Below are positions 3,345 through 44,319 of a stretch of 64,000 nucleotides of DNA, one piece after another; positions within the stretch are counted from its first letter, which is position 1, and each line of letters opens with the position of its first letter. The position numbers were made by a program, and so were the translations under genes. The notes beneath the pieces are model-generated. The model was given only the letters and a program-made list of their open reading frames with translations, did no database searches and had not been told where the DNA came from. Source of the stretch: Phycisphaeraceae bacterium (lineage in GTDB: Bacteria > Planctomycetota > Phycisphaerae > Phycisphaerales > UBA1924). The DNA is taken from NCBI GenBank assembly GCA_019636565.1, contig JAHBXG010000003.1:1-64000 (forward strand). Reading direction: 5' to 3'.

Positions 3345-3441
3345 TCTTTCAACTCCGCGATGACAGTTGATGGCCTGCAAACGAAAAACCCGGCTGAGGG
3401 CCGGGTCGATTGCTGCGATAGAGACTCCGCTGCCTGCCGGC

Positions 3442-4137
3442 TCAGGCGGTGGAGTCGTCGGTAGTCGTCGTGGCACGGGTGGGGTTCATTTCGGGGGGAG
3501 GATACGCGGGTTGGCTTGCGTCGGCCACTGGTACCGCCGCGAGGATTGACTCTTCAATCGCCAGCTTCATGGCTGCTTCCGAGTCGTCGGGACAGCGGAC
3601 GCCGGCTTCGAGCACCGGCGATTGTGGACCCAGATCAATGCGGATCTTTCTCCAAAATGGTCCGACGCGCTGGATGGTGACCCACTCTGCCCCGGTCCAG
3701 CGGAGGAAGCGCTCGGAGGTCATCTTCGCGCCGATGCTCTCCTTCACGGGCTCGTAGTAAGCGCCGCCGGTGACGAACACAAAGCGCGTGGCCTCGGACT
3801 GCGTGCCGCGCCCAAGTACGAGGACAACAACGGTTCCGATTGCCGCGACCACAATCGTTGCAAGAAGTCCGATGACACCGACGAAGCCGACAAGAAGGGG
3901 CCAGAACTGCATCATCAGGTAGAGCAACGCCACCAAGCCGGCGGCGGCGAAGGTATACCGGCGTGACGCACCGACAATTCCCTTCGGCACGCCGTAGACG
4001 ACAAAGGCGTTTACGGGCGGCGTTCGCCCGCACTCTGGGCACGGGCTGAGCGCGGGCAGTCCCTCGAGGGGGTACCCGCACATCGGACAGCGCTTGAGCT
4101 CTTCAGTCCAGCCCGGATCGGGCATGACCTTGGTCAT
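3442..4137 (-). CDS. Membrane protein with N-terminal zinc ribbon
   Basis: 231 residues, function unknown. Residues 15-40 hold CPMCGYPL and CPECG, a two-CxxC zinc ribbon. Two close hydrophobic segments follow at about 63-83 and 86-110, then a hydrophilic C-terminal domain of about 120 residues ending in a Thr/Asp-rich tail. The start is uncertain: ATG at 4137 or the Met five codons in. The same ribbon-plus-membrane design occurs in the first gene of the window, suggesting a lineage-specific family. It lies upstream of the small zinc-ribbon gene and thrS on the same strand and may share their transcript. Confidence 0.65.
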   Translation of the reverse strand: MTKVMPDPGWTEELKRCPMCGYPLEGLPALSPCPECGRTPPVNAFVVYGVPKGIVGASRRYTFAAAGLVALLYLMMQFWPLLVGFVGVIGLLATIVVAAIGTVVVLVLGRGTQSEATRFVFVTGGAYYEPVKESIGAKMTSERFLRWTGAEWVTIQRVGPFWRKIRIDLGPQSPVLEAGVRCPDDSEAAMKLAIEESILAAVPVADASQPAYPPPEMNPTRATTTTDDSTA

Positions 4138-4173
4138 CCGTCGCGAATCTCCGATCGAGGGACGCTACTTCGA

Positions 4174-4569
4174 TCAGTTGGCAGCGGCAGCCGGGCCCTG
4201 GTACTCGGCACTTCCAAAGCCCAAGATCGGGACGAAGATGAACGGGAGGAAGATCAAGCCGAGCGTGGTGCCCAAACCGCGCCCGAAGGACTTGGAAAGA
4301 TCGTTGCTGACGATGATGGAGACGATGAAATTGACGAACGGGATGATCATCAGAATCAGCCACCACCACGGCCTGCCGACGACCTTGAGCAGGATGTACA
4401 TGTTGAAGATCGGAATCAGGCACGCCCAGCCGGGCTGCCCGGCCTTGGCGAAGACTTTCCAGCCACCCGCGATGATGACGATCAGAATCGCGAGGTAAAT
4501 CAGAAGCCCGATCGTCCCCACTGCTTCGTCGCCGCCGCTGGATTGGGCGAGCATCAGTGAATTCAGCAT
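4174..4569 (-). CDS. DUF5684 family membrane protein
   Basis: 131 residues, nearly all hydrophobic, with four predicted membrane segments. The signature WKVFAKAGQPGWACLIPIFN followed by a WWW-containing segment and LSKSFGRGLG matches the DUF5684 family, sometimes found near signal peptidases; its function is unknown. The ATG at 4569 is supported by GGAG seven bases upstream. The frame stays open to 4809, but that extension is low-complexity basic sequence overlapping the divergent nrdR promoter region, so I reject it. Confidence 0.75.
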   Translation of the reverse strand: MLNSLMLAQSSGGDEAVGTIGLLIYLAILIVIIAGGWKVFAKAGQPGWACLIPIFNMYILLKVVGRPWWWLILMIIPFVNFIVSIIVSNDLSKSFGRGLGTTLGLIFLPFIFVPILGFGSAEYQGPAAAAN

Positions 4570-38752: not shown

Positions 38753-39307
38753 TCAGGCGCGGGACTGATAGCTGCCGTCTTCGGTCGCGACGCGGATCGT
38801 CTCGCCCTGCTTGATGAAGGCGGGCACCTTGACAGTAAGGCCGGTCTCGGTGATTGCGTCCTTGGTCTGGTTGGTCACGGTCGCGCCCTTTACTTCGGGC
38901 GGACAGTCCGTGATCGTCAGCTCGACGGATGGGGGCAGTTCGATTGTGATCGGGTTGCCGTCGAACAGGAGCACGGTGCACTTGCTGTTGGGGCGGATGT
39001 ACTTGAGCGTGTTGCCGAGGAGTTTGTCGTTCAACTGATACTGCTCGAAGCTCTCTGTATCCATGAACGTTGCGCCCTGCGAATCGGAATAGAGGTATTC
39101 CATTTCGCGCCTGTCGAGATCGAGAATCTCGATATCTTCGCCCGGCTGCATGCGCTTATCGAGTGTCTTGGCGGCGATGATCTCGCGGTACGTCAGTTGA
39201 ACGAAGGCACGCAGATTTCCGGGCGTGCGGTGCTCGATCCCCGTGACCACGCACATCTTGCCGTCCATCTTGAAGCCCATGCCGTTCCGCAAATCTGCTG
39301 CTTTCAT
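38753..39307 (-). CDS. efp: Elongation factor P-like protein, Asn at the loop tip
   Basis: EF-P rescues ribosomes stalled at polyproline. 184 residues with KOW-like domain I, then the two OB domains; EFP signature region NPITIELPPSVELTITD and C-terminal GLTVKVPAFIKQGE are typical. In domain I the loop that reaches the peptidyl-transferase centre reads HRTPGNLRAF. Compared with PGKGQA in E. coli, the modified Lys34 is replaced by Asn31. AGGA lies eight bases before the ATG. The gene is single and ends in an intrinsic terminator. Confidence 0.93.
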   Translation of the reverse strand: MKAADLRNGMGFKMDGKMCVVTGIEHRTPGNLRAFVQLTYREIIAAKTLDKRMQPGEDIEILDLDRREMEYLYSDSQGATFMDTESFEQYQLNDKLLGNTLKYIRPNSKCTVLLFDGNPITIELPPSVELTITDCPPEVKGATVTNQTKDAITETGLTVKVPAFIKQGETIRVATEDGSYQSRA

Positions 39308-41904: not shown

Positions 41905-43068
41905 TCAGGCGGGTTGCTGCTGCGAAAGGCAGTGGATGGAACCGAGACCCCAGATGAGTTCGGTGCTGTCAACCCCCACCACTTTGTGCTTGGGGAGGTG
42001 CTGCTGGAGGATTGCGAGAGCGAGTTTGTCGTTCTTCTTGTCGCGGAAAGTCGGGACGAGGACCGCGCCGTTAATAAAGAGAAAGTTGAGGTAGGTTGCG
42101 GGCAGGCGCTGACCGTCGTGCTCGACGATGCCGGGCATGGGGATCTCGACGATGTTGAAGGGTTCGCCGTCTTGATCGCGAAGTTCCTGGACGCGCTTGT
42201 AGTTCTCTTTGAGGATCTTGAAGTTCGCGTCGCGGCGGTTGATTTCGAGGGCAACGACGATGGTGTGCGGATCGAGGAAGCGGGCGAGGTCGTCGATGTG
42301 GCCGTCGGTGTCGTCGCCGACGATGCCGTCGCCGAGCCAGCAGACGTGCGACTGGCCGTAGTAATCCTTCAGGAAGTCCTCGAGTTGTGACTTGGTCAGT
42401 TGGGGATTGCGGTTCTTGTTGAGCAAGCAGGACTCGGTCGTGAGCACTGTTCCCTTGCCGTTGAACTCGACAGCACCACCTTCCATGATGACGGGGACGC
42501 CGGTTTTCGTCGGCGGGTGCTTGGGATAGAAGATGCCGGCGAAGTCGGCCCGCTTCTCGGCGACGAACTCGTCGGCGATGCGGGTGGGCACGGCATCGTC
42601 GCTGTCGAAGGGTGGATACTTGCCTCCCCAGGCGTTGAAGCCCCAATCAACTATGGCGAGCTGCTTTTTGCCCTTGTGTGTGCGGGTAAGGAATGCGGGA
42701 CCGTGATCGCGGCACCAGGACTCGTTGGACTTGATGTAGTGAAACTGAATTCGCGACTTGCGGTTGGGCCTCGCCTCATACGCGGTCTGCGGTCCAAAGT
42801 GTTTCTTGGGAATGCCACCGGCAATGAGTTGTTCGCGAGCGAGGCGCTCGTAATTCTCGTTGGGAACATTGATGTGGACGGTCTGACGTGCCGCGATCTC
42901 GCGGATGAAGAGCGCGATGTTGGCGGGTACGGTGTGGTACTTGCCCGGGAAGGAAATGCCTTCGGGGCGAGGCCAACTAAACCACGTTGCTTCCTGACGC
43001 GACCATTCCGCAGGAAACGTGAAGCCGTGTGAGAGCGGGGTGCCGGTGAGTTCACGGAGTTGAGGCAT
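41905..43068 (-). CDS. aguA: Agmatine deiminase (AguA-type)
   Basis: Converts agmatine to N-carbamoylputrescine. About 387 residues of the peptidyl-arginine-deiminase fold. Landmarks: FPAEWSRQEATWFSWP at the N-terminus, ESWCRDHGPAFL, IMEGGAVEFNGKGT, DDTDGHIDDLARFL and the catalytic Cys in GLGSIHCLSQQQP at the very end. With the N-carbamoylputrescine amidase gene on the same strand at 44305-45306 it forms a two-step agmatine to putrescine route. The ATG at 43068 matches the family start; the frame extends to 43119. Confidence 0.92.
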   Translation of the reverse strand: MPQLRELTGTPLSHGFTFPAEWSRQEATWFSWPRPEGISFPGKYHTVPANIALFIREIAARQTVHINVPNENYERLAREQLIAGGIPKKHFGPQTAYEARPNRKSRIQFHYIKSNESWCRDHGPAFLTRTHKGKKQLAIVDWGFNAWGGKYPPFDSDDAVPTRIADEFVAEKRADFAGIFYPKHPPTKTGVPVIMEGGAVEFNGKGTVLTTESCLLNKNRNPQLTKSQLEDFLKDYYGQSHVCWLGDGIVGDDTDGHIDDLARFLDPHTIVVALEINRRDANFKILKENYKRVQELRDQDGEPFNIVEIPMPGIVEHDGQRLPATYLNFLFINGAVLVPTFRDKKNDKLALAILQQHLPKHKVVGVDSTELIWGLGSIHCLSQQQPA

Positions 43069-43193
43069 CTTGGAATTTCTCGCAGAACGCGGCGTCATAG
43101 CCGTGAAGGTGGGACGCAAAGGTAGGGGCTCGCGATCTGAATTCGCTGTTCAAATCCCGGTGGGCCGGTGTGCGAACCATGTGATGATTGCCC

Positions 43194-43868
43194 ATGGTTT
43201 CGATCGTTCATCCCGTTCGGTCTGCCCGCCCCGCTGTCGCAGGCGGCGTAGGCGATGATCGCAAGTATCAGGCCATGGTGGAAAGGGACGCGAGTTTCGA
43301 AGGAGCGTTCGTTGTCGGGGTACGCACCTCGGGGATTTTCTGTCGTCCGGGCTGCACGGCGCGCCTGCCGCGGCGGGAGAATGTGGAGTTTTTCGCCGGC
43401 GTGAGTGAAGCGCTGCACGCGGGATATCGACCATGCAAACGGTGCCGACCCCTGGAGCCGGCTGGAGTGGCGCCGGCTTGGGTCACGATGTTGCTGGCGG
43501 TCGTGGAAAGAGAACCGACGCGCCGACTTGGCGCGGACGACCTGCGGCAGATGGGCGTAAACCCGGCGACGGCGTCACGCTATTTCAAAGCAAGGTATGG
43601 GATGACGTTTCAGGCGTACGCACGGTCGAGGCGGGTGGGCGTGGCGATGAAGACGCTGCGCGAAGGCAAGTCAGTTTCGAGCGCTGCGGCGCGGAGCGGG
43701 TATCGATCCGAGAGCGGGATGCGCGAAGCTTTTTGTCCGGATGTTTGGCGCGCCCCCTGTGCGGGCTGCGGGTCTTCAAGTGAACACACCGCTTGTCGCG
43801 AAGTGGATGACGACGCCTATCGGCTCGATGCTGGCGGTCGTGAACGATCATGGGCTTTGCCTGTTTGA
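43194..43868 (+). pseudogene. ada: Ada, N-terminal part (methyl-phosphotriester and AraC domains), frameshifted
   Basis: The first part of an Ada-type DNA alkylation sensor. The zinc domain has GVRTSGIFCRPGCTA and YRPCKRCRP, four Cys with the methyl-accepting one among them. An AraC-type helix-turn-helix follows (ASRYFKARYGMTFQAYAR, then SAAARSGYRSESGMREAF). Right after REAF the frame shifts at a run of five T (43730-43734) and continues as 45 unrelated residues. Removing one T would fuse it to the methyltransferase part as one protein of about 374 residues, the usual Ada size. Either a real frameshift or a homopolymer sequencing error. Confidence 0.85.
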
Positions 43869-44319
43869 GTTTGTCGACCGGCGCGCGATCGAGACGCAGA
43901 TCGCGGTGCTCCGGCGAAGGTTTGAAACGCATGTCGTGCCGGGAGAGCATCCGATGTTGGCGCGGGTTGAACGCGAGGCGCGGAAGTACTTCGACGGTAC
44001 GTCGTCGGTGATTGATGTGCCGCTGGCGGTGAAGGGCACCGAGTTTCAGGAGCGGGTTTGGGCTGCTCTGCGGCGGATTCCGCCTGGAACAACGCGGAGT
44101 TATGCAGAGATTGCCGCCGAGATTGGGCTGAAGACGGCTGTGCGGGCCGTCGCTCGTGCGAACGGCGACAATCGGCTGGCAATCGTGATTCCTTGTCACC
44201 GAGTCATCGGGTCGGACGGGAGCTTGACCGGGTACGGCGGCGGCATCTGGCGCAAGGAATGGTTGCTGGAACACGAACGGAAGATGGCGTCGGAGCGATC
44301 GGCCCTAGATCGAACCTGA
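43741..44319 (+). CDS. Ada, C-terminal part: O6-methylguanine-DNA methyltransferase
   Basis: 192 residues, the suicide methyltransferase domain of Ada. It shows ERVWAALRRIPPGTTRSYAEIA, the acceptor Cys in IVIPCHRVIGSDG and GYGGGIWRKEWLLEHE. It is in the +1 frame relative to the upstream part. It could be translated alone from ATG 43741 or GTG 43780 and act as an Ogt-type enzyme, or be the second half of a single Ada. Its end overlaps the convergent aguB gene by 15 bases. Confidence 0.88.
   Translation: MFGAPPVRAAGLQVNTPLVAKWMTTPIGSMLAVVNDHGLCLFEFVDRRAIETQIAVLRRRFETHVVPGEHPMLARVEREARKYFDGTSSVIDVPLAVKGTEFQERVWAALRRIPPGTTRSYAEIAAEIGLKTAVRAVARANGDNRLAIVIPCHRVIGSDGSLTGYGGGIWRKEWLLEHERKMASERSALDRT

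Follow-up and report, generated by a model that had tools for sequence, protein, structure and literature searches.

The elongation factor P (EF-P) encoded in the stretch of DNA analysed here (the window, 64,000 nucleotides from a Phycisphaeraceae genome) carries an asparagine at the tip of its domain I loop, and, as judged from sequence comparison, this Asn tip is no oddity but part of a rebuilt loop common to many planctomycetes and acidobacteria. We consider the protein probably to be a genuine EF-P, from a subfamily with Asn tips, that would relieve ribosomes stalled at prolines while bearing none of the tip modifications known so far. EF-P frees stalled ribosomes. In most bacteria its loop tip is a lysine or arginine, which often bears a modification, and a long cationic side chain at this place is usually associated with activity. 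The many bacteria that combine Asn with a compensating loop offer a natural test of the role of the tip at the peptidyl transferase centre.

The efp gene (P0001; 184 amino acids plus stop) lies on the minus strand at positions 38753–39307, with the ATG start at 39307, the coding part at 38756–39307, and the stop codon at 38753–38755, as assigned from the translation and from Pfam, TIGR00038, and PDB matches. Residues are numbered from this ATG, whereas the mechanical ORF list begins at an upstream TTG. The TIGR00038 efp profile matches residues 2–184 with 210.5 bits (cut-off 185.8), identifying a full-length EF-P, and all three Pfam EF-P domains (PF08207, PF01132, and PF09285) are present in the ORF. 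The KOW-like domain I, taken as residues 1–61 (39125–39307, minus strand; PF08207 match to residues 3–58), is the part that separates Asn-type from Lys-type proteins in trees of the order Phycisphaerales. A PDB sequence search matched 12 EF-P-like chains, structure comparison also matched EF-P folds, and the AlphaFold model (mean pLDDT 88.6) places N31 in the middle of a loop of residues 28–34 between strands 17–27 and 35–42. An alignment of 44 EF-P sequences contains 12 invariant columns. In domain III, residues 140–143 (38879–38890, minus strand) are K-G-A-T and differ from the K-G-D-T consensus of the alignment. Phycisphaerales proteins of both loop types usually have GAT or NAT here, and GAT in place of GDT was rejected as a marker of loop type because it is found with both in this order.

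The plus-strand letters att at 39215–39217 give the codon AAT (Asn31) on the minus strand, next to Gly30 at 39218–39220, and direct reading of the region yields H26-R-T-P-G-N31-L-R33-A-F35. Translation, AlphaFold loop bounds, and loop tables delimit the β3-Ω-β4 loop as T28-P-G-N-L-R-A34 (39206–39226, minus strand), corresponding to E. coli positions 31–37, the numbering used below for comparisons of loops. In the five PDB alignments inspected of the 12 matched chains, the loop is gap-free and N31 stands opposite the Lys of PGK. A sequence-only reading of the window had aligned this Asn with E. coli Lys34, which the codon and the PDB alignments bear out, and had concluded that none of three known tip modifications can occur on it, which is also correct. 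It had named two findings that would speak against it, an alignment shift restoring a tip Lys and a second canonical EF-P in the same genome. No shift can supply a Lys because there is none between K17 and K47, so this possibility is ruled out. All five closest relatives (90–96% identical EF-Ps) keep HRTPGNLRAF, and the Asn tip is therefore no stray error.

As to a second EF-P, none was found with two EF-P domain profiles in the source genome, a 4.03 Mb MAG of 90.6% completeness with a single EF-P locus. The five close relatives likewise gave one EF-P match each, the closest named one by EF-P being a Phycisphaerales MAG with 96% identity, and no second copy was thus found in any of the six genomes. 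EF-P paralogues are present in five other genomes (G220, G231, G337, G368, and G393). The PPP motif of valyl-tRNA synthetase (ValS) needs EF-P in other bacteria, and it is kept in each of the five relatives as well as in the source genome, whose valS is cut off by a contig end, so that a substrate with this requirement elsewhere is present.

A search for the modification genes epmA and epmB had also been proposed in the sequence-only reading. None of 39 planctomycete genomes, which represent both loop types and include the source genome, gave an EpmA or EpmB match above the cut-off, while 2 of 14 named control genomes were positive for EpmA and 1 of 14 for EpmB. Matches below the cut-off occurred for EpmA in all 39 genomes, in frames of lysyl-tRNA-synthetase length, and for EpmB in 20 of them, the source genome not being among these. 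The EarP profile was found in none of the 39 planctomycete and none of the 14 named genomes, so that no control was positive either. Among the ORFs flanking Asn-type efp genes (107 used of 146 heuristic picks), the commonest family, sigma-54, accounts for 8 of 107, and no recurrent modifier gene was found in these ORFs (best 25 of 84 families). Shikimate kinase and metallo-beta-lactamase genes, families that also occur in the window, flank both Asn- and Lys-type efp at several loci; they were rejected as partners, since adjoining both types points to apparent locus synteny. Elsewhere in the window, Ada metal-binding/HTH and O6-methylguanine methyltransferase parts lie in two overlapping ORFs in different frames (43188–44319, plus strand), so that Ada is either encoded in two pieces here or interrupted by a frameshift or a mistake in the assembly. 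Near efp, the minus strand at 41905–43119 encodes a PF04371 protein, from the family of agmatine deiminases, which would fit an agmatine-based polyamine route.

Across the planctomycetes, 368 of 392 genomes had an EF-P match, and 143 rows from 139 genomes were read. The alignment of planctomycete EF-Ps that the sequence-only reading had suggested shows Asn or Lys at the tip in every row (104 Asn, 39 Lys, and no other residue); as the rows were chosen for their similarity to P0001, Asn is favoured in this ratio, and 104/143 is no phylum frequency. Of the family-level groups in the main set of 99 genomes, 29 include the Asn form and 9 the Lys form. In the 124-row set, the 82 Asn rows combine P32, G33, and L, W, or K at position 35 (82 each) with T31 (78) and R36 (80), the last corresponding to Arg33 of P0001 (39209–39211, minus strand), whereas the 38 Lys rows all have G35, with R36 in only 5, all of them TPGKGR loops from one family. 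In 40 rows added later, R36 is found in all 31 Asn rows and in 2 of 9 Lys rows. T31, L/W/K35, and R36 characterize the Asn type, and K31, G35, and P/G36 its Lys-type sisters. The Asn tip noticed in the sequence-only reading is real, but the view of a single lost residue is incomplete: positions 31, 34, 35, and 36 vary in concert, and many of the planctomycete and acidobacterial EF-Ps read are of this form. From its conservation, Arg33 appears to be the best supported helper residue.

Several loops depart from this pattern. Two Asn-type rows (G099 and G263; 2 of the 31 Asn rows added later) have Lys instead of P32, with loops reading HVAKGNKRS, contrary to a 2019 statement that pairs Asn34 always with P32 (Volkwein et al., PMC6544042). 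The two Asn rows without R36 (of 82) belong to G138 and G206, where the loop reads PGNKPA and the genome lacks a homologue of deoxyhypusine synthase (DHS); G228, from the same family, has a PGNKRG loop and a DHS homologue. The Lys35 of PGNK loops was rejected as a general hidden substrate, since it is found in only 10 of 82 Asn rows. At five loci of family f94, TPGKGRA loops, with a Lys tip together with T31 and R36, branch in the tree next to rows of the Asn type and possibly represent a return from Asn to Lys.

The Asn form extends to the acidobacteria, for which 30 loci (best matches, one per genome) were taken from a phylum of 119 genomes. Here, the best match has Asn with R36 in 29 genomes and Lys in one. 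Hand-picked further rows comprised 20 lower matches (12 with a Lys tip, 2 with Arg, and 6 with Asn, one of these last in the loop KIANRR) and 20 second copies. Of the latter, 16 carry an EfpL-like loop (e.g. SPTARGGQTL), so called by resemblance and not by a profile, while one is Lys-type and three are unreadable at the loop; 7 of the 16 genomes with an EfpL-like second copy also have a read Asn-type EF-P.

Both loop types occur within Phycisphaerales. In a set of 43 rows (34 from the order, the other 9 being the protein of the window and those of the named relatives nearest to it), positions 31, 34, 35, and 36 separate 24 Asn from 19 Lys rows completely: R36 with L/W35 is found in all 24 Asn rows, and K31, G35, and P/G36 in all 19 Lys rows, 16 of which have a KPGKGP loop. 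A tree of the 124-row set, computed from all domains with the loop masked and with 11 of 71 named loci kept, requires at least 10 changes between Asn and Lys. Domain I of the 43 rows (residues 1–64 without the loop) requires only one, and a single branch sets all Asn rows apart; with few columns, it has an SH-aLRT support of 75 and is unstarred. Domains II and III require six changes each, and an Asn clade is rejected for both (p-AU 0.025 and 0.007); with outgroups, the numbers become 1, 8, and 7 for domains I, II, and III. One locus (L038, positions 3393–4555) encodes a Lys-type and an Asn-type efp in tandem and in the same orientation, with 50 bp separating the stop codon of one from the start of the other. 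These copies are 89% identical in domain III and 47% in domain I outside the loop, while the next best domain III of the same type in another genome reaches 82% for the Asn copy and 86% for the Lys copy. In G220, G231, G337, and G368, domain III is 52–62% identical between copies, below between-species values, so recent homogenization is seen only once, in L038, and general gene conversion of domain III was rejected. With less certainty, we infer that the Asn and Lys forms may be two old paralogue types of domain I with some recombination with domains II–III and differential loss; the alternative would be convergence of domain I residues with the loop. Together, the sister genomes with either loop and the one with both in tandem provide a ready set for loop swaps.

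If the Asn-type protein acts as a true EF-P, the P–G turn would hold the loop, and the Asn34 amide, the conserved Arg36, and residue 35 might touch 23S rRNA or the CCA terminus of the tRNA-Pro in the P site, contacts that would replace the long modified Lys. The co-changing T31, L/W/K35, and R36 would be the obvious compensation for an Asn tip. In E. coli, the K34N variant shows no activity in vivo, so Asn alone cannot simply replace Lys in that loop, and EF-P lacking the modification is partly active, at about 50% (PMC6544042). A stiffened loop has been cited, from a study of actinobacterial EF-P, as working without modification (PMC11611912). Considering that the KPGKGP loop shares its core with Corynebacterium glutamicum EF-P and that the stiffness strategy is modification-free, both loop types of Phycisphaerales may, by analogy, be modification-free. 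The actinobacterial study of Pinheiro et al. from 2020 reportedly concerns a PGKGP loop.

We regard it as possible but rather unlikely that the loop instead carries a covalent modification of a kind not yet described, attached to Arg36 or to the amide of Asn by an enzyme other than those known. Such a modification would agree with the strict limitation of the tip to Asn or Lys in the 143 planctomycete rows, in which position 35 is variable, with the inactivity of E. coli K34N, and with the need of many EF-P classes for modification, known generally and from PMC6544042. Yet no enzyme family recurs beside Asn-type efp, with sigma-54 topping the families as given above, although a modifier need not adjoin its target; the EarP profile found nothing, albeit without any positive control, and PGN-x-R is no N-x-S/T sequon. 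It is very unlikely that the protein has degenerated or serves a different function, with proline stalling handled elsewhere, for example by ABCF proteins. ABCF factors can help stalled ribosomes, and the halved activity of unmodified E. coli EF-P and the inactive K34N variant (PMC6544042) would also agree with this reading, but the protein is full length and conserved across its invariant columns, the Asn form spans the 29 family-level groups of the 99-genome set, and efp encodes the only EF-P found in the source genome.

Least probable of all, in our view, is that a DHS homologue modifies Asn-type EF-P, a role suggested for DHS-like genes found in some genomes with Lys- or Asn-tip loops (Volkwein et al. 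2019, PMC6544042). The lead is backed by the distribution of PF01916, which passes its cut-off in 66 of the 73 Asn-type genomes, compared with 11 of the 26 that have the Lys type alone (kinship ignored, Fisher p 2.4e-6; partial matches at contig ends included, and sub-cut-off matches in G077 and G057 counted as absent) and by a W-G-K motif kept in all 40 DHS homologues read, of 77 genomes with one. In the source genome, the match is partial and at a contig end. When kinship is considered, however, only three supported contrasts exist, which lean the same way (1.8 vs. 0.1) and cannot reach significance. In addition, DHS is missing from seven Asn-type genomes, five of them at least 91% complete, and the 40 homologues vary widely around the W-G-K motif and fall into several sequence groups. 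An Asn tip also sits badly with DHS chemistry, which requires an amine acceptor. Among 123 heuristically picked ORFs flanking 32 of the 40 DHS loci (best 25 families), we found ornithine/arginine decarboxylases (PF02784, n = 4), pyruvoyl arginine decarboxylases (n = 3), and arginase-family proteins (n = 2). A Thermus DHS homologue makes caldomycin en route to homospermidine (PMC10981699), and the homospermidine-forming speY of Gimesia maris, a planctomycete, adjoins a candidate gene for arginine decarboxylase (PMC10407285). With such flanks and homologues, polyamine synthesis explains the DHS lead better than EF-P modification, and the DHS homologues would fit the former better.

Returning to the reading as a true EF-P, it is quite possible, though short of probable, that the Asn-tip protein is a separate solution to proline stalling in many Planctomycetota and Acidobacteriota, either with a modification-free loop in which the Asn amide and Arg36 would replace the long cationic side chain or with a modification chemistry undescribed on translation factors, and that in Phycisphaerales the loop types travel as domain I cassettes that may recombine with species-specific domains II–III.

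Asn tips have been in print since 2010, when they were reported for 2.2% of organisms lacking yjeA/yjeK (Bailly & de Crecy-Lagard, PMC2821294); they recur in the 2019 survey and were listed again in 2024 (PMC11611912). The efp product therefore belongs to a known sequence class, sharing with the Asn-tip EF-Ps of the 2010 and 2019 surveys the combination of Asn34 and P32. In the available excerpts, these surveys treat the tip residue, and the co-change of T31, L35, and R36 and the planctomycete and acidobacterial spread come from the present analysis. In the openly accessible papers searched, we found neither an activity nor a mass of any Asn-type EF-P; functional work on Asn-tip proteins and an account of the loop motif of planctomycetes were likewise not found there. 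What is new here is the sharper description of the loop, spread, and evolution of a known but little studied class. Other EF-P types differ at the tip: Lys-type and 5-aminopentanol-Lys EF-Ps have Lys at position 34, where the efp product has Asn31, and the EarP type has an Arg tip without P32, in contrast to the Asn tip with P32. EfpL (YeiP), whose Arg33 tip was unmodified by mass spectrometry in E. coli (PMC11611912), has a prolonged loop; the efp product has one of seven residues and misses both EfpL cut-offs (138.7 against 216 bits for NF003392 and 118.5 against 264.05 for TIGR02178). The KPGKGPA core of the actinobacterial C. glutamicum EF-P (6s8z) equals the commonest Lys-type loop of Phycisphaerales, but its tip is Lys, whereas the efp product has Asn with an Arg two residues on. 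With E. coli EF-P, which bears a beta-lysylated Lys34, the protein shares the fold, the domains, and P32-G33, but Lys34 is replaced by Asn and neither EpmA nor EpmB exceeds its cut-off in the source genome.
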